NCBI GenBank assembly: GCA_024363285.1
Contig: AP024711.1
Span: 124,001 to 188,000 of the forward strand
Reading direction: 5' to 3'
DNA: 64,000 nucleotides
DNA from: Leptolinea sp. HRD-7
GTDB taxonomy: Bacteria; Chloroflexota; Anaerolineae; Anaerolineales; Anaerolineaceae
The position numbers and the translations under genes were made by a program. Below, in pieces: positions 24,815-64,000 of the stretch (positions are counted from its first letter, which is position 1; every line of letters starts with the position of its first letter). The notes under the pieces were generated by a model. The model saw only the letters and a list, made by a program, of their open reading frames with translations, was not told the DNA's origin and ran no database searches.

Positions 24815-26497
24815 CTATCCGGCTTTGGCCATTTCTTTCAGGTATTTCTCGCGGTTGGCCGGACGCGCGGTCTTTCCACTGCTGGTTTTAACGATCCACT
24901 TCTTCGGTACCAGGTACACATGGCGCAGCGCCACAGCCGAACCTCTGGTGACGGTCTTGCGAATCTCATTGGCGATGGCTTCTTTTTCCGCCGGGTCTTC
25001 CGTATCTACTTCGGCCACAATAACCACTTCTTCCGTGCCGCTGTCATCATTGAACACGCCAAACGCCACCAGACGCCCGGGATGAACACCTTTTACTTCC
25101 ATAGCCAGTTGCTCAAGGTCAGCCGGGTAGACGTTCTTGCCGCCGACAATGATCAGGTCTTTCTTACGTCCGGTAACAAACAACTCACCGTTCAAGGTGT
25201 ACCCGTAATCACCGGTCATATACCAACCGCCGTCAACGAAAGCCTTTTTCGTAAGGTCATCGCGGTGATAGAAACCTGTGAGCATGCAATCGGATTGTAT
25301 CGCGATCTCCCCGATCTTGCGGTCAGGCAGCAACTGACCATCACTGCCGTATACGCGTACCCGGGTGTTGCTGATCGGCACACCGGATGACAGCATTCGA
25401 ATGGATTGGCGGCCTTCCACAGCCGGGCGCGCCTCCCAATCGATCTGCACACCCTCAAGATCAACCTCGTCAACGCTCATCGGGTAGCCAAAACCTGATT
25501 GGGTGATGGCAAACGTGTTTTCGGCCATTCCATAGCTGCTGCAGAGAACCGACGGATTTAACCCATACGCGGTGAACCGGGCGGCGAATTTTTCATGGGC
25601 CGCCACGCGAACAGGTTCAGAGCAGTTGATCACCCCTCGCCAGGAGGAGAGATCAACACCTTCCAGATCTCGGTCACGGGTCTTTTCGGCGCTAAACACG
25701 AAAGCGAAATTCGGCAGCCAGGTCAGCGTTCCCTTATACCGGGTGACGGATTGCATCAGGCGGTACGGTCCTCTCACCCAGTCAAAGGGTGACATCATTA
25801 CGATTTTGATGCCATACAAAACCGGCATGAGGAAGCAAGCAATAAGACCCATATCGTGGTACAACGGCAGCCAGGAGACGATCACATCGTCTGATGAAAC
25901 TTTCAGAGTATTGGAATAACAATCCAGTTGGTTAAACACACTTCGGTGTGAGAGGGCGATACCTTTTTGCAGCCCTGTTGTGCCGGAAGAATGCTGTAAG
26001 AGCACCACCTCTTCCGGTTGGCGGTTCATACCGCCCATAATAGAGAAATCCGGCTCGACCGGCACGTCATTGCCGGTAAGGATGACCGCGCGCACAGAGT
26101 CGCCTTTGTGCAGGGCAGATCGCACTTCTTCCTCAAATTCAGGGTATGTTACGATCGCAGCCGGGCGCGAAATGCTGACGAGCGATTCCAGGTCAGAGCG
26201 GTAACGTTCAGGAGAAAGTTTCTCTGTCAGGTAGGGTAATATCGAAGGTATGGCACCGTGGATTATGGCACCCCAGTAGGCATATACCAGTTCTATGGAA
26301 TGCTGCATGATCAGCACAATCACTTCACCAGGTTCAATACCATTCTTCCGGTAAAGCGCGGACCAACCCGCCGCTCCTTTCAGCAGATCGCGGTATGTGA
26401 TAGGAACGTCGTCTTTACCGGCAAACTGCACAACCAGGCTTACCTGATCGGGGTGGTTATCGTAATGACCTTTGAGAGTGGTTGTGAAATTACGCAT
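24815..26497 (-). CDS. Fatty acyl-AMP ligase-like AMP-binding enzyme
   Basis: A 560-residue adenylate-forming enzyme. The ATP motif H-S-S-G-T-T-G-L-Q-K-G, N-C-S-E-P-V-R, S-S-Y-G-M-A-E-N-T-F, G-D-Y-G-Y and the late K-T-S-S-G-K-T-A-R are in order. N-C-S-E-P-V-R and Y-G-M-A-E are the forms seen in fatty acyl-AMP ligases (FAAL), which load acyl chains onto carrier proteins rather than CoA. The open frame extends 93 codons further upstream, but that part is a translation of the intergenic repeats; the start chosen gives M-R-N-F-T-T-T-L. No carrier protein or polyketide gene is adjacent, so its partner is elsewhere. A CoA ligase is the alternative. Confidence 0.85.
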   Translation of the reverse strand: MRNFTTTLKGHYDNHPDQVSLVVQFAGKDDVPITYRDLLKGAAGWSALYRKNGIEPGEVIVLIMQHSIELVYAYWGAIIHGAIPSILPYLTEKLSPERYRSDLESLVSISRPAAIVTYPEFEEEVRSALHKGDSVRAVILTGNDVPVEPDFSIMGGMNRQPEEVVLLQHSSGTTGLQKGIALSHRSVFNQLDCYSNTLKVSSDDVIVSWLPLYHDMGLIACFLMPVLYGIKIVMMSPFDWVRGPYRLMQSVTRYKGTLTWLPNFAFVFSAEKTRDRDLEGVDLSSWRGVINCSEPVRVAAHEKFAARFTAYGLNPSVLCSSYGMAENTFAITQSGFGYPMSVDEVDLEGVQIDWEARPAVEGRQSIRMLSSGVPISNTRVRVYGSDGQLLPDRKIGEIAIQSDCMLTGFYHRDDLTKKAFVDGGWYMTGDYGYTLNGELFVTGRKKDLIIVGGKNVYPADLEQLAMEVKGVHPGRLVAFGVFNDDSGTEEVVIVAEVDTEDPAEKEAIANEIRKTVTRGSAVALRHVYLVPKKWIVKTSSGKTARPANREKYLKEMAKAG

Positions 26498-57814: not shown

Positions 57815-58205
57815 CCGTAGGGGCGGATCGCATCCGCCCAATGTCTGTCGCGACTTTATCTGCCCACGGCCTTGTGCAGCAACCATCCATTCCACAGAAA
57901 TCGTTCAAATCCATGTCCAGGGCAGAATTCCAATCCATCCGTAGGGGCGGATGGCATCCGCCCAATACCAGGTGCGGCGACCTTCCATTCAACGAAATCT
58001 ATACATCATTGCCAGGTTGAACATGGCGATTTGCTCATCCATCGGATATGTCCTCCTTAATGCCTGGGCGTATGCAATCCGCCCCTACGCACAACCGGAT
58101 TTGTTGATATCCCCATTCGTGCCCACAGCCAGGTGCGGCAACCGTCACATCCACAGGAATCCTCCCGGACTTTATCCGGGCGGACTCGGTCCGCCCCTAC
58201 GCAAC
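57815..58205. repeat. Dispersed REP-like hairpins left of the RAYT gene
   Basis: At least three palindromes share CGTAGGGGCGGAT and ATCCGCCC ends: near 57819 (GGGCGGATCGCATCCGCCC), near 57941, and near 58165-58203 (TCCGGGCGGA...TCCGCCCCTACG). A half copy is near 58075. They flank the RAYT gene and are its probable substrates. No gene is supported from 57688 to 58231. Confidence 0.75.
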
Positions 58206-58231
58206 AATTGAAAATTTTGTAAAATCATGTC

Positions 58232-58738
58232 ATGGCCGAACTTCAAAACCGCAAACCAACTCGCCTGTCCGGTTTCAATTACGCCAATTCAGGGGGATAT
58301 TTCATCACTCTTGTCACTCATGAACGGAAAAAAATATTCGGTAATATCGTCAACGGCGAAATGGTGACCAATGCCATTGGCCGGATTGTGTCTGATGAAT
58401 GGGTTCGATCGGTCGAAATTCGCCCCGAGATCGAGTTGGATCATTGGTGCGTCATGCCCAATCATTTCCACGCCATCATCATAATGAAAGAATCGTATTC
58501 CCATCCCCAAGGGGGAACATTTCAAAGAACTCCAGATTCATTGGGTTCAATTGTTGCCGGATTCAAGGGTTCAGTAACAAGAAAGGTCAATGAAATCAAT
58601 GGTTCACATGGTTTTCCGGTCTGGCAAAGGAATTATTATGACCATATCATCCGTGATGATGAGGATTTAAATCGTATTCGGGAATATATCATCAACAACC
58701 CGTCAAAATGGGAATTGGATAAGGAATATTTGGATTGA
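58232..58738 (+). CDS. REP-associated tyrosine transposase (RAYT)
   Basis: A 168-residue Y1 transposase of the TnpA-REP group. The HUH motif is H-F-H in V-M-P-N-H-F-H-A-I-I (about 74-83), and the catalytic tyrosine lies in W-Q-R-N-Y-Y-D-H-I-I-R-D (about 131-142). The opening T-R-L-S-G-F-N-Y and closing Y-I-I-N-N-P-S-K-W are also typical. RAYTs cut and join single-stranded REP hairpins and are usually single-copy, vertically kept genes rather than active insertion sequences. REP-like palindromes lie on both sides here. The active residues look intact. Confidence 0.92.
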   Translation: MAELQNRKPTRLSGFNYANSGGYFITLVTHERKKIFGNIVNGEMVTNAIGRIVSDEWVRSVEIRPEIELDHWCVMPNHFHAIIIMKESYSHPQGGTFQRTPDSLGSIVAGFKGSVTRKVNEINGSHGFPVWQRNYYDHIIRDDEDLNRIREYIINNPSKWELDKEYLD

Positions 58739-58742
58739 TCCT

Positions 58743-59170
58743 TCGTAGGGGCGGATGGTACCTGTACTGGATGTATTCTTCCAGTATCCGCCCCAGATAT
58801 GTCGCGGCAACCTTCACATGCACATGAATCGACCCCATCCGTGTTCGGGGTGGACGCGGTCCACCCCTACGAAATACATTAATAATCCTCCGTAAAGGCG
58901 GATGGTACCTGTACTGGATGTATTCTTCCAGTATCCGCCCCATGCGTGTCGTGGCAACCTTCCCATCCATTCGTATCGTTCCCATCCGTGCTCGGGGTGG
59001 ATGCGATCCACCCCTACTCTGTACATTAGTCATCCACCGTAGGTGGCGGATGGTACCTGTACTGGATGTATTCTTCCAGTATCCGCCTCGGGTAAAATGC
59101 GGCAACCTACTCGTCCGCAAGAATCGTTCCCATCCATGTTCGGGGTGGATGCGATCCACCCCTACGAACA
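58743..59170. repeat. Three tandem ~147-base REP/BIME units right of the RAYT gene
   Basis: Units start near 58744, 58891 and 59038. Each has a first hairpin GGCGGATGGTACCTGTACTG...CAGTATCCGCC and a second hairpin GGGGTGGAcGCGGTCCACCC ending CCTACG. A long minus-strand frame through this block arises because the unit length is close to a multiple of three; it is not a gene. Confidence 0.85.
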
Positions 59171-59217
59171 AATATTTAACATGAACGCATTACAATTACC
59201 CGCAGGAGACTTTCACC

Positions 59218-59697
59218 ATGGCACTTTCATCATCCGCGCAAAAAGTTCAAGACTTCCTTTCCGCTTCAGGCTACGCGCATACTGTGGTGGAGCACAACCA
59301 ATCCACCCGCACCTCGGAAGAAGCCGCGGCGGCCATCGGCTGCACCGTGGCACAGATCGCCAAATCGCTGGTTTTCATCACCCGCCGCAGCAAAAAGCCG
59401 GTGATGGTCATCGCGTCTGGCCCTAACCGCGTGAGCACCAAACGTATGGCCGAAACCCTCGGCGAACCCATTGACCGCGCCGACCCCGATTTCGTCCGCC
59501 AGGTGACCGGGTACGCCATCGGCGGTATTCCCCCGGTGGGCCACGCCCAACCGCTGGACACCTATATAGATGAAGACCTGCTTGCGTTCACGGATATCTG
59601 GGCGGCGGCCGGCGCCCCCACCGCTGTCTTCAAGTTGACCCCCGCCGAGCTGGTCAAAATGACCGGCGGTACCGTGATGAAGGTTAAAGAGGAATAA
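59218..59697 (+). CDS. ybaK: YbaK/EbsC-type aminoacyl-tRNA deacylase
   Basis: A 159-residue YbaK/ProX-fold protein that hydrolyses mischarged tRNA (for YbaK, Cys-tRNA-Pro). The catalytic lysine lies in Q-I-A-K-S-L-V-F and the substrate loop in G-Y-A-I-G-G-I-P-P-V-G-H. Length is normal. An AGGAG ribosome site lies nine bases before the ATG, right after the REP array. The exact tRNA specificity within the family is not visible. Confidence 0.9.
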   Translation: MALSSSAQKVQDFLSASGYAHTVVEHNQSTRTSEEAAAAIGCTVAQIAKSLVFITRRSKKPVMVIASGPNRVSTKRMAETLGEPIDRADPDFVRQVTGYAIGGIPPVGHAQPLDTYIDEDLLAFTDIWAAAGAPTAVFKLTPAELVKMTGGTVMKVKEE

Positions 59698-59758
59698 CCT
59701 CTCCCTTTGCGGTAAAATGGGACAAATTTGAACCGATTCCCCTACCGGAGGGTTTAGC

Positions 59759-60166
59759 ATGTCTTATCGCCGTCTTTCCTTAATTACCTGTCTGGCTCTC
59801 ACCGCCGGGCTGCTTTCCGCCTGCTCCGGCGCTGCTGGCGCCGCGGCCGCCGGCCCTGAAAAAGCCGTTGAAACCTACCTCACCGCTCTGGTCAATCAGG
59901 ACGCCAACCGCCTGACCACCGCCTCATGCAAGTCCTGGGAAGAAAAAGCCAAACTGGAACTCGATTCCTTCCAGGCGGTCAAAGCCAAACTCGACGGACT
60001 GGTCTGCACCAAAGCCGGTGACGTTGACGGCGGGGTCAAAGTGACCTGCACCGGCAAGATCGTGGCCACCTACGGTAACGAAAATCAGGAAATCCCGCTG
60101 GACCGCCGTCCCTACCTGGTTTCACAGGAAGGCGGCGAATGGCGTATGTGCGGCTATACGAAGTAA
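59759..60166 (+). CDS. Small lipoprotein of unknown function
   Basis: A 135-residue exported protein. The lipobox L-S-A-C gives a lipid-linked cysteine at residue 22. The mature part has a short Ala/Gly tether and a compact domain of the DUF4878/NTF2-like kind (E-K-A-V-E-T-Y-L-T-A-L-V-N-Q-D opening), with a possible disulphide among its cysteines. A GGAGGG ribosome site precedes the ATG. Its stop TAA overlaps the ATG of the microprotein gene by one base (TAATG), and the MBOAT gene follows, so all three are one translational unit. A role in presenting or shielding an acylated envelope polymer is only a guess. Confidence 0.82.
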   Translation: MSYRRLSLITCLALTAGLLSACSGAAGAAAAGPEKAVETYLTALVNQDANRLTTASCKSWEEKAKLELDSFQAVKAKLDGLVCTKAGDVDGGVKVTCTGKIVATYGNENQEIPLDRRPYLVSQEGGEWRMCGYTK

Positions 60167-60282
60167 TGAACCGCCTCTTCAATAAAGAAAATGCCCTGGC
60201 TCTCGCCCTGGCGCTGATGTTGATCGCGCTGCTGGTGTTCACTGCCGAATCCACCCCGCTGTGGATCTATCAGGGGTTCTAG
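60166..60282 (+). CDS. DltX-like 38-residue membrane microprotein
   Basis: A short frame coupled to both neighbours: its ATG overlaps the lipoprotein stop and its stop is four bases before the MBOAT start. The peptide is M-N-R-L-F-N-K-E-N, a membrane helix of about 17 residues (A-L-A-L-A-L-A-L-M-L-I-A-L-L-V-F), then T-A-E-S-T-P-L and the C-terminus W-I-Y-Q-G-F. Firmicute DltX has the same plan: charged start, one helix, and an extracellular C-terminal motif of the F-x-Y-x-x-F type that works with the MBOAT protein DltB. Identity is inferred from plan, motif and position, not from overall similarity. Confidence 0.72.
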   Translation: MNRLFNKENALALALALMLIALLVFTAESTPLWIYQGF

Positions 60283-60286
60283 TTCC

Positions 60287-61738
60287 GTGACCATCCAGCA
60301 GATCCTCTTCGCCTTCTTTGCCGCCCTGATCTACCGCGTGATGACCATGCCCGCGGTGAAGGACGTTCCCGGCCCCCACCCCGAACGCGGACGTACCGGC
60401 GTGCTCTTCGCCGCGTCAGTGCTGGCCGTCTACGGACTGCAGCCATCCCTGCCCGTGCGCGGGCTGGACTACTGGCTGCCTACCCTCACCCTGGTGTTGA
60501 CGGTCATCTGCTGGGCGGCTGTCACCCCGGCGGAAGAACGCTCGCTGAAAGCCAACGCCCCTGCCCTGCTCGGGCTGCTGGGCGCGGCGCTGCTGGTGGC
60601 GCTTTCTCGCTTTGTGACCTTGCCCGCGGGTCTGGTCAACCTCGCCCCTCCTCCGCTGGAACAGGCCCTCATCGGGCTTGTCGTTCTGGGAGTATTGGTA
60701 TTCATATCTATACGCATTAAACAGCCTTCCGCCGGGCTGGCGCTGGGTATATTGATCGTCCTGTTCGTGGTCCTCAAGACCCCTCCCCTTGCCCTGTTGA
60801 CGTCCGCCGGGCTGCGGTCTCTCGCCGGGCAGAACACCGCCGGCGCCTCACCCATTGACATCCGCTGGCTGGGCTTTTCGTACCTGGCCTTCCGCCTCAT
60901 CCACACACTGCGCGACCGGCAATCCGGCCGCCTGCCCTCCGCCACACTGGCGGAGTACCTGACCTACGCCGTGTTCTTCCCGGCGTTCACCTCGGGGCCG
61001 ATCGACAAACTCGACCGCTTCCTGAAGGACCTGCGTACCCCCGCCGCCCTCGATTCCGGCGAGTTCGCCGAAGCCTTCCGCCGGCTGGTGCTCGGCCTGT
61101 TCAAAAAATTCGCCGTAGCCGACACGCTGGCGATCATCGCGCTCAATCCGCAGGTCGCGGGTCAGGTCACCCAACCCGGTTGGCTGTGGTTGATGCTCTA
61201 CGCGTATACCCTGCAGATCTATTTTGACTTCAGCGGCTACACCGATATCGCCCTGGCAATGGGGCGCATCCTCGGGTTCAAACTGCCCGAGAACTTCAAC
61301 AACCCCTACCTGCGCACCAACCTTACGCAGTTCTGGAACAACTGGCACATGACGCTCACCAACTGGGTGCGCGCGTACTTCTTCAATCCGGTCACTCGCT
61401 GGTTCCGGGTGAACAAACCGGAAATGTCCGTACCGCTGGTGATGGTCATCGGGCAGCTTGGAACCATGCTGCTGATTGGCCTGTGGCACGGGGTGACGGT
61501 CAACTTTGTGATCTGGGGTCTGTGGCACGGCCTGGGGTTGTTCGCGCAGAATCGGTATTCGGAGTGGGCCAAACGCTCCGCGCCGGGCCGGGTGCAGTCA
61601 ACGTGGGGGAAGAAACTGCTGGGATTCGGCAGCTGGCTGGTCACCTTCCACTATGTGGCCTTCGGCTGGGTGTGGTTCTGTCTGCCGGACATGGGGTCAG
61701 CGTTGAAGGTGTTTGCGGGGCTGCTGGGATTGGGATAG
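60287..61738 (+). CDS. MBOAT-family O-acyltransferase (DltB/AlgI-like)
   Basis: A 483-residue membrane protein with about eleven hydrophobic segments. The family motifs are intact: Y-F-D-F-S-G-Y-T-D-I-A, F-W-N-N-W-H-M-T-L-T-N-W (H354) and the catalytic histidine H401 in I-G-L-W-H-G-V-T-V-N-F. The start is GTG, four bases after the microprotein stop, so it is made only by coupled translation. DltB and AlgI move acyl groups across the membrane to envelope polymers, normally with a DltD- or AlgJ-type partner; none is encoded here. The acyl donor and acceptor are unknown. Teichoic acids are not established in this phylum. Confidence 0.92.
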   Translation: MTIQQILFAFFAALIYRVMTMPAVKDVPGPHPERGRTGVLFAASVLAVYGLQPSLPVRGLDYWLPTLTLVLTVICWAAVTPAEERSLKANAPALLGLLGAALLVALSRFVTLPAGLVNLAPPPLEQALIGLVVLGVLVFISIRIKQPSAGLALGILIVLFVVLKTPPLALLTSAGLRSLAGQNTAGASPIDIRWLGFSYLAFRLIHTLRDRQSGRLPSATLAEYLTYAVFFPAFTSGPIDKLDRFLKDLRTPAALDSGEFAEAFRRLVLGLFKKFAVADTLAIIALNPQVAGQVTQPGWLWLMLYAYTLQIYFDFSGYTDIALAMGRILGFKLPENFNNPYLRTNLTQFWNNWHMTLTNWVRAYFFNPVTRWFRVNKPEMSVPLVMVIGQLGTMLLIGLWHGVTVNFVIWGLWHGLGLFAQNRYSEWAKRSAPGRVQSTWGKKLLGFGSWLVTFHYVAFGWVWFCLPDMGSALKVFAGLLGLG

Positions 61739-61757
61739 ATTTGTTTCTATGATTATG

Positions 61758-61805
61758 AAGAGGGATCATTTTGTTGACTTCAAAAAAATGATCCCTCTTT
61801 TCTTT
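61758..61805 (+). terminator. Rho-independent terminator after the MBOAT gene
   Basis: AAGAGGGATCATTTT and AAAATGATCCCTCTT form a perfect 15-base-pair stem around a 12-base loop, followed by TTCTTT, 19 bases past the MBOAT stop. Confidence 0.85.
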
Positions 61806-63070
61806 GCAGGGTGGATGCCGGCGGGGGATTATTGCATCCTCGCATATCGATACAATTCCCGCCACATCAACCGCAGGTTTGCCGGGAAACGTACCCATCC
61901 ACAGACAATATCCAAATTGTGCCGCGGTAGATGCAAGCGGATTCAGGTCAATAATTACAGACTCATATCCTCCCGCTTGCAACTACCCTACCAGAAAATT
62001 GTGACACCTGCAGGGTTGATGCCGGCGGGGGATTAATGCGCCCATTCGCACATGGCACCATTCCCGCCGCATCAACCGCGGGATTGGGAAGATGTATCCA
62101 ATCAAAAGAAATCACCAAAATTGTGTCACGGTAGATGCAAGCGGATTCAGGTCAATAATTACAGACTCATATCCTCCCGCTTGCATCTACCCTACCGAAA
62201 ATATGTGACACCTGCAGGGTGGATGCCGGCGGGGGATTAATGCGCCCGCGCGAAACCGTCACCATTCCCGCCGCATCAACCGCGGGTCTGCCGGGAAACG
62301 TACCTATCCACAGACAATATCCAAATTGTGCCGCGGTAGATGCAAGCGGATTCAGGTCAATAATTACAGACTCATATCCTCCCGCTTGCAACTACCCTAC
62401 CAGAAAATTGTGACACCTGCAGGGTTGATGCCGGCGGGGGATTAATGTGTCCAAATAAAACCGGCATCATTCCCGCCGCATCAACCGCGGGTCTGCCGGG
62501 AAACGTACCTATCCACAGACAATATCCAAATTGTGCCGCGGTAGATGCAAGCGGATAAAGGTCTTATATTCACAGATGCATATCCTCCCGCTTGCATCTA
62601 CCCTACCGAAAAAATGTGATTTTTTGCAGGGTTGATGCCGGCGGGGGATTAATGTGTCCATTGGAGAATTGCACCATTCCCGCCGCATCAACCGCTGGTC
62701 TGTCGGGAATTTATCTCATCCATAGACAATATCTCGAATTTGCCGCGGTAGATGCAAGCGGATTTTCGCCTCAGGTTACAAGACGCATATCCTCCCGCTT
62801 GCATCTACCCTACCGAAAATGTGGTTTTTTTGCAGGGTTGATGCCGGCGGGGGATTATTGTGTCCATTGGAGAATTACACAATTCCCGCCGCATCAACCG
62901 CTGGTCTGTCGGGAATTTATCTCATCCATAGACAATATTTCGAATTTACCACGGTAGATGCAAGCGGATTTTCGCCTCAGGTTACAAGATTCATGTCCTC
63001 CCGCTTGCATCTACCCTGCCGAAAAATGTGATTTTTTACGGGGTTGATGCCGGCGGGGGATTAATGCGTC
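61806..63070. repeat. Tandem array of ~205-base two-hairpin units
   Basis: Six units with GTAGATGCAAGCGG at about 61927, 62131, 62336, 62541, 62748 and 62954 (period 202-207). Each has hairpin one (GTAGATGCAAGCGG paired with CCGCTTGCATCTAC) and hairpin two (GGTTGATGC-c-GGCGGG paired with CCCGCCGCATCAACC). Stem bases are kept while loops drift, and some stems show paired changes. The first and last units are partial. No gene is supported from 61739 to 63183. Confidence 0.88.
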
Positions 63071-63183
63071 CGTGTGATATCGTCACAATTCCCGTCCGCT
63101 TATGCGTCAACCGTGGGACGAACCCAACGGTTTTCCATCCGAGATAAATTTCCGTTTATGACGTCTAGATCTGAACGCAACGT

Positions 63184-64000
63184 TTAACCACCCACCGCTA
63201 ATAACAAACCGAATATATATCCGGCCAGGGTGCTAAATACGGCGACAAGCGCGACATATATCGCCGTCTTCTTTTTGCCCATCACACCATTCAATACCAG
63301 AATGGACTGAAGCGAAAGCTCAGGGTCTGAGAGCAGATACGCCAGCAAAGGACCGCGGGCCATGCCCAGATCCAGGAACATTTTCGCTACGGGTACTTCA
63401 ACCAGCGTGGGGAAATACATAAACACACCGAAAATAACACCCACCAGATTCGCCCAGATCGTATTTTGACCGGCAATGGTGCGCACCCAGGATTCCGGTA
63501 TGATCACTTTGACTATTCCGGCCGCGAAAACCCCGATGATCAACAACGGGAAAATCTGTTTGACGAATTTCCAGGTTTCCCACACCCACCCTGCCAGTTC
63601 GTCCTGGCTGAACGAACGGTTAGCCACAACCCCGATGGCAACAAGCAGGATTAATTCACCGATCAGTCGTCCATTGATGCCGATCACCAGAGAACCAACC
63701 TCTTCTTTTGGCGCCGCGAGCAAAATGGTCAACGCGATACAGGCAAAAGCCGCGTAAGTCCAAGCGGTAAAGCCGTCAAAGATAGACTCAAATCCTCTCC
63801 ACGCGGTGATACCGATCACCACAAGCATCAGGATCAAAATCGCTCCCTGGACCGTCAGGTTCATGGTTGACAGGAAGGAATCCAACCTGTTTTCCCACCC
63901 GGCGGATAGATGGAAAGAAGCGTACACGTTTGTAAACAAGTCGATCTGCAGCGTGCCGACAATTAACACCGCTACAAGCAGAGTGAACATTACCCATATC
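63184..64000 (-). CDS. DUF318 (ArsP_1/YraQ-type) permease, cut by the window edge
   Basis: At least 268 residues of a polytopic membrane protein; the frame is still open at the right edge, so the true start may lie outside. The segments W-K-F-V-K-Q-I-F-P-L-L-I-I-G-V-F-A-A-G, Y-F-P-T-L-V-E-V-P-V-A-K and G-x-x-x-G-P-L-L-A-Y-L-L-S-D-P-E-L-S-L-Q-S-I match the DUF318 permease family, which includes the organoarsenical exporter ArsP and many proteins of unknown substrate. No ars gene is seen within the window. Confidence 0.82.
   Translation of the reverse strand, partial: IWVMFTLLVAVLIVGTLQIDLFTNVYASFHLSAGWENRLDSFLSTMNLTVQGAILILMLVVIGITAWRGFESIFDGFTAWTYAAFACIALTILLAAPKEEVGSLVIGINGRLIGELILLVAIGVVANRSFSQDELAGWVWETWKFVKQIFPLLIIGVFAAGIVKVIIPESWVRTIAGQNTIWANLVGVIFGVFMYFPTLVEVPVAKMFLDLGMARGPLLAYLLSDPELSLQSILVLNGVMGKKKTAIYVALVAVFSTLAGYIFGLLLAVGG

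Follow-up and report, generated by a model that had tools for sequence, protein, structure and literature searches.

A conserved DltX-like microprotein beside a DltB-like MBOAT in Anaerolineae, and its probable role as a detached acyl shuttle

In Leptolinea sp. HRD-7 (Chloroflexota, Anaerolineae) a gene of 38 codons, here called X, is packed between a lipoprotein gene and the gene for an MBOAT acyltransferase, which raises the question of whether so short an open reading frame is a gene at all and, if so, what its product does. The window referred to throughout is the whole stretch of 64,000 nucleotides that was analyzed (contig AP024711.1, positions 124,001 to 188,000), and it was compared with the genomes of relatives and of more distant bacteria. 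We consider it likely that X serves a DltB-like MBOAT as a detached acyl-shuttle peptide, within a five-component, carrier-dependent envelope acylation system of the Anaerolineae. By analogy with DltX in Gram-positive bacteria, a tyrosine of X very probably ferries acyl groups through the membrane.

The locus and its smallest gene

The features of the locus, in window positions, are as follows.

59759-60166, + strand: lipoprotein gene (135 residues; stop codon TAA at 60164-60166), often the first gene of the operon
60166-60282, + strand: microprotein X (38 codons, ATG to TAG)
60262-60279, + strand: codons for W-I-Y-Q-G-F, a motif like that of acyl shuttles, by its invariance in aligned X sequences and its likeness to FXYXXF
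60287-61738, + strand: DltB-like MBOAT (483 residues, GTG start), with neither a C-terminal extension nor a fused motif
61346-61348, + strand: codon for His354 of the MBOAT, aligned with DltB His289
61487-61489, + strand: codon (CAC) for MBOAT residue His401, which aligns with the catalytic His336 of DltB
61757-61800, + strand: hairpin followed by a T-rich stretch (fold -24.2 kcal/mol, z -6.2), likely the terminator of the lipoprotein-X-MBOAT unit

The stop codon of the lipoprotein gene and the start codon of X overlap by a single base (TAATG) and a spacer of four bases (60283-60286) separates X from the MBOAT GTG, exactly, to the base, as the sequence-only reading of this DNA had placed the 38 codons. 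The translation, MNRLFNKENALALALALMLIALLVFTAESTPLWIYQGF (38 residues), contains one predicted membrane helix at about residues 10-28 (by inspection), with lysine and arginine at the N-terminus and the C-terminus P-L-W-I-Y-Q-G-F, in which we propose Tyr35 as the acyl carrier by analogy with known shuttles. X belongs to no family in Pfam or NCBIfam, a profile built from it matches no PDB chain, and the upstream lipoprotein has a weak match, under cut-off, to NCBIfam NF051431 (Rv0361_Cterm). A search of window positions 58000-64000 gave no Rfam match. The surroundings are repetitive: about six tandem 206-base units, also without an Rfam match, lie directly 3' of the MBOAT terminator (61805-63099), and three tandem 147-base units (58744-59168) adjoin an IS200-like transposase open reading frame (58232-58738).

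Conservation and joint inheritance of X and the MBOAT

Comparison with relatives indicates that X is a genuine gene. An MBOAT orthologue occurs in 35 of 61 related genomes at 43-73% identity, with one at 40% (L059), and within the first 30 loci every orthologue with a readable upstream region is directly preceded by a short open reading frame ending in P-x-W-I-Y-[QS]-G-F, the kind of frame that had been suggested as a check upstream of Anaerolineae MBOAT genes. In these relatives the X stop abuts the MBOAT start or lies a few bases from it; L034, where the upstream region is lost at a contig end, is outside the count. All 32 aligned X sequences are small single-pass proteins with the C-terminal F/W-x-Y-x-x-F feature of DltX, in the form W-I-Y-[QS]-G-F, so that W, I, Y, G and F are invariant and only the Q/S site varies. 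Within the window's genus, the dN/dS of X is approximately 0.1-0.2 (a ratio taken from the computed dN and dS values) and variation in the last eight codons is almost purely synonymous, the pattern of a gene that is, on this comparison, under purifying selection at the amino-acid level. X is present in L088, interrupted by masked N. Two later loci from metagenome-assembled genomes, L092 and L093, have no X beside the MBOAT. The L093 genome holds a second, complete and contiguous operon elsewhere (L217), in the order X, MBOAT, SGNH protein (S), acyl carrier protein (ACP) and fatty-acyl-AMP ligase (FAAL). In the L092 genome, an assembly of 4.1 Mb that may be incomplete, no X was found anywhere, which counts against a shuttle role.

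The two genes are inherited together. In a sample of 400 Chloroflexota genomes, the X profile was positive in 34, all of the window's class, and the MBOAT profile (presence at E < 1e-120) was positive in the identical 34; neither gene was found in the remaining 366. This agrees with the earlier suggestion that X may be widespread, here within the Anaerolineae. Such counts are inflated by shared ancestry; nevertheless, in G201 and G400 X and the MBOAT lie on separate contigs, and in G423 a distance of 2.1 kb that holds two GDSL genes parts them, and these unlinked cases are independent of operon inheritance. The same genomes bear on the reading of X as a short leader or translational-coupling frame that merely tunes translation of the MBOAT, which the tight packing would suit, with its one-base overlap, its four-base gap to GTG and, in many relatives, directly abutting stop and start codons. 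A leader would not be expected to show purifying selection on its amino acids with synonymous variation, nor to share its motif with fused MBOATs, and we reject this reading as very improbable because X persists when unlinked from the MBOAT.

The MBOAT, its partners and their distance from dlt

What X might supply is indicated by MBOATs that carry its motif themselves. The four other MBOATs of the window genome, which serve as an internal control, have on their own C-termini the endings FIYQAF, YIYGNF, FIYQGF and FVYQGF, and a fused motif ending is found in about 59 of 66 more distant bacterial MBOATs (pattern match, plus L139 by eye), with a separate motif-ending short open reading frame for two of the 66 (L125 and L147). 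By contrast, the motif is absent from all 25 aligned MBOATs of the present type (the window protein and 24 orthologues), which end soon after the last conserved helix. As the other MBOATs are motif-fused and this one is motif-free, X would provide in trans the element that they hold in cis. DltX is described as giving DltB what other MBOATs bear in cis, an FXYXXF motif is found in both DltX and PatA, and acyl-tyrosine shuttle chemistry, which has been shown experimentally in PatA, is ascribed to DltX as well, while non-Dlt MBOAT/SGNH pathways are described as having no DltX-like microprotein (PMC12148441); the C-terminal motif of DltX is described in two studies (PMC12148441, PMC11035591). The system shares with PatA-PatB and AlgI-type O-acetylation the combination of an MBOAT, an SGNH transferase and an F-x-Y-x-x-F acyl-tyrosine shuttle motif, but in those systems the motif is fused on extra C-terminal MBOAT helices and here it is a separate gene. 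Moreover, PatA draws on acetyl-CoA, whereas a carrier protein and ligase are present here.

The MBOAT itself falls within the superfamily (75.4 bits to PF03062, cut-off 27) and closest to DltB. It scores 222.6 bits against the NCBIfam DltB model TIGR04091, under the curated cut-off of 375, two DltB entries are its sole matches among PDB sequences, and the best matches to its modeled fold are DltB structures, with Z of 28.4 and 28.2 (8jem and 6bug) against 23.6 for the next. Together with this closest fold, both active-site histidines are in place: H354 and H401 are invariant in the 25 aligned MBOATs, in agreement with the earlier singling out of H401. In the tree, the MBOAT orthologues form a clade of their own (support 97), next to a single DltB row (89), with long branches that, like the topology tests, do not settle the order. 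Topology tests rejected neither a single clade of all split MBOATs (p-AU 0.476) nor a placement of DltB outside a group of the Anaerolineae split and the fused MBOATs (p-AU 0.409).

X itself is DltX-like in architecture and motif, a description that does not extend to common ancestry with DltX. The Pfam DltX profile (PF12459) has no match at any X in six-frame searches of 41 genomes, with B. subtilis and L. lactis controls above cut-off, and a Pfam search of 32 X proteins likewise gave no match to DltX. X is invisible to this family profile; the sequence-only reading had suggested that such a gene, too short for normal gene calling, may be unannotated. The central suggestion of that reading, a DltX-like microprotein coupled to a DltB-like MBOAT in the absence of a dlt operon, is supported.

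A third constant component is the SGNH protein S, which occurs in 35 of 35 relatives with the MBOAT and 0 of 26 without it (61 genomes; the genome sets of S and the MBOAT were compared by hand), and both are doubled in the same two genomes. Its AlphaFold2 model (pLDDT 84.8) has an SGNH fold, and S has an invariant G90-D91-S92, containing the block I serine, and an invariant C-terminal H341, which place it in the SGNH superfamily; no residue could be assigned as its catalytic acid, a point against the model proposed below. TesA-type and other SGNH enzymes match the predicted structure with Z of about 16 across 170 residues, and the DltD entries do so with Z of 14.0-14.5 across 273-282 residues, the longest alignments among the matches listed. 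S is fused to a GDSL lipoprotein-type domain, G, in proteins of 672-675 residues at L049 (6429-8444) and L078 (6183-8207), and because of these fusions it seems that S and G act together. The lipoprotein had earlier been put forward as a possible partner. It is a frequent neighbor, yet it was not found adjoining the MBOAT in 3 of 23 neighborhoods, and we reject it as the sole or key partner in favor of S, which is missing from no MBOAT genome.

The remaining components are a carrier protein and a ligase, the latter also within the window.

24815-26497, - strand: fatty-acyl-AMP-ligase-like enzyme, the putative counterpart of DltA (59% identity to the ligase of the L038 operon)

The best matches of the ligase are all FAAL/FACL models, each under its cut-off (335 bits against 600 for PRK09192; 341 against 572 for PRK07768), and the ligase of a relative matches FAALs and polyketide synthase loading enzymes among PDB sequences. 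From these families we infer an enzyme that would activate fatty acids and load the carrier protein, although its substrate may be an amino acid. It was found in 30 of 35 MBOAT genomes; the five without a match at E < 1e-160 count against the shuttle model. The carrier protein, 68% identical to that of L038, is nearest to the AmcB, OlsHI and DltC models, each under cut-off, with DltC scores of 30 bits against 68 for NF003464 and 24 against 52 for TIGR01688. A FAAL-like ligase of the PRK07768/PRK09192 subfamilies paired with a carrier recalls the FadD32-type FAAL and ACP pairs, but by gene context this pair would feed MBOAT/SGNH acylation and not a polyketide synthase, as do the pairs of polyketide and lipid pathways.

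Many relatives encode all of these parts in one contiguous operon, in the order lipoprotein, X, MBOAT, S, G, ACP and FAAL. In the window genome they are dispersed on the smaller of its two contigs (C2, 212187 bases), with the carrier at about 31.5 kb, S at 61.6 kb and the ligase at 148.8 kb; the extremes of the pathway lie more than 150 kb apart. Judged from protein families, then, the X/MBOAT system is complete, with all five dlt functions covered by different proteins, and the earlier picture of a reduced three-gene system does not hold: carrier, ligase and SGNH protein all exist, contiguous in relatives and scattered here.

Could this be a true D-alanylation system of the dlt type that has diverged in the Chloroflexota? 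The bit scores of the MBOAT to TIGR04091 and of the carrier to NF003464, the DltD-like overall fold of S and the tree that joins the MBOAT with DltB all speak for it, and there are real likenesses: a detached single-helix microprotein with a C-terminal aromatic-x-Tyr-x-x-Phe, a short DltB-like MBOAT without a fused motif, and a dedicated carrier protein, adenylating ligase and membrane-anchored SGNH protein. Conversely, the profiles for DltA (TIGR01734) and DltD (TIGR04092) have no match in the window genome, with positive controls detected, the DltX profile is negative, the DltB and DltC scores are far under their curated cut-offs and the ligase scores as a fatty-acyl-AMP ligase rather than as DltA. 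The dlt systems known are mostly of Firmicutes, acting in teichoic acid D-alanylation, with the microprotein gene preceding dltA, whereas here the host is a chloroflexotan, X precedes the MBOAT, and GDSL lipoproteins and a small lipoprotein are additional parts. With X unmatched by Pfam DltX, and MBOAT, carrier and S either below or without Dlt profile cut-offs, we reject true Dlt membership and regard a diverged dlt system as unlikely.

Proposed acyl transfer and wider occurrence

We propose a model for the detached acyl shuttle that follows PatA/PatB and DltX/DltB/DltD (PMC12148441, PMC11035591). It starts from an observed gene set, with its joint inheritance, invariant motif and fold types, and infers from the known systems the reaction steps as well as the presence of an acyl group and an acceptor polymer. 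The FAAL-like ligase would adenylate a carboxylic acid and load it onto the dedicated carrier protein, from which the MBOAT, by analogy with DltB-DltX and PatA, would take the acyl group on the cytoplasmic side and, through His401, esterify Tyr35 in the C-terminal end of X, which would face the outside. The acyl-tyrosine would then pass the group to the serine of membrane-anchored S, which would move it onto an envelope polymer.

Membrane enzymes are often stabilized by small single-pass proteins, and it is conceivable that X instead acts on the MBOAT as a subunit with a structural or regulatory task, serving assembly, tetramer state or recruitment of S without carrying acyl groups. A role of this kind has been suggested for DltX and DltD (PMC11035591). 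The invariant residues of X fall almost entirely in its C-terminal motif, corresponding to the peptide that is acylated in PatA, and the MBOAT contains no other copy of it, for which reasons we judge a purely structural subunit to be quite unlikely. When X of L025 was joined to the MBOAT by an 8-residue linker in place of its stop, AlphaFold2 modeled the MBOAT well and the X helix with pLDDT of about 76; the motif fell below 50, a confidence too low to place it, and the fusion lends the acyl-shuttle model no support.

To our knowledge, DltX is the sole recognized detached acyl shuttle. In the literature searched, in which coverage of DltX was partial, we found no report of a FAAL joined with DltB or another MBOAT, and the Anaerolineae pathway with its different loading enzymes appears to be undescribed so far. 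It would represent a second conserved case of a detached shuttle, with activating and transfer enzymes other than those of dlt, and it leads one to expect acyl-tyrosine chemistry in the Chloroflexota, about whose cell envelope little is known.

The system also allows a direct test of whether splitting of the motif goes with carrier-protein donors. A strict rule to that effect is weakened by at least one exception, since an acidobacterium (L104, 8001-10872) encodes a fused MBOAT (FLYFQF) directly followed by an ACP and by a FAAL that shares 47% identity with the ligase of the Anaerolineae, so that use of a carrier protein does not by itself demand a split motif.

A small motif-ending open reading frame near a short MBOAT provides a search sign for further cases. 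The Patescibacteria loci L147 (3875-5160) and L125 (2294-3657), of Peregrinibacteria and Chisholmbacteria, encode MBOATs without a fused motif, one 36-codon X each (FIYNNF and FIYVDF) and adjacent SGNH genes; no carrier protein was seen on these contigs. We somewhat favor the view that detached acyl-shuttle microproteins extend beyond D-alanylation and mark a wider MBOAT/SGNH class, to which the split pairs of Patescibacteria would also belong, with an interchangeable carrier-loading enzyme that would be DltA in Firmicutes, FAAL-like in Anaerolineae and an amino acid:[carrier protein] ligase in Paenibacillus sp. Soil766. If this is true, acyl groups other than D-alanine reach envelope polymers by way of tiny genes that family profiles miss. 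The Paenibacillus locus (L204, G451:C24, 6201-9968) is a further non-Dlt split system with an FG-GAP protein, an ACP, a ligase resembling amino acid:[ACP] ligases (155 bits, cut-off 357), a weakly DltD-like protein, a 35-codon X ending in FIYEKF and a 391-residue MBOAT under the DltB cut-off.
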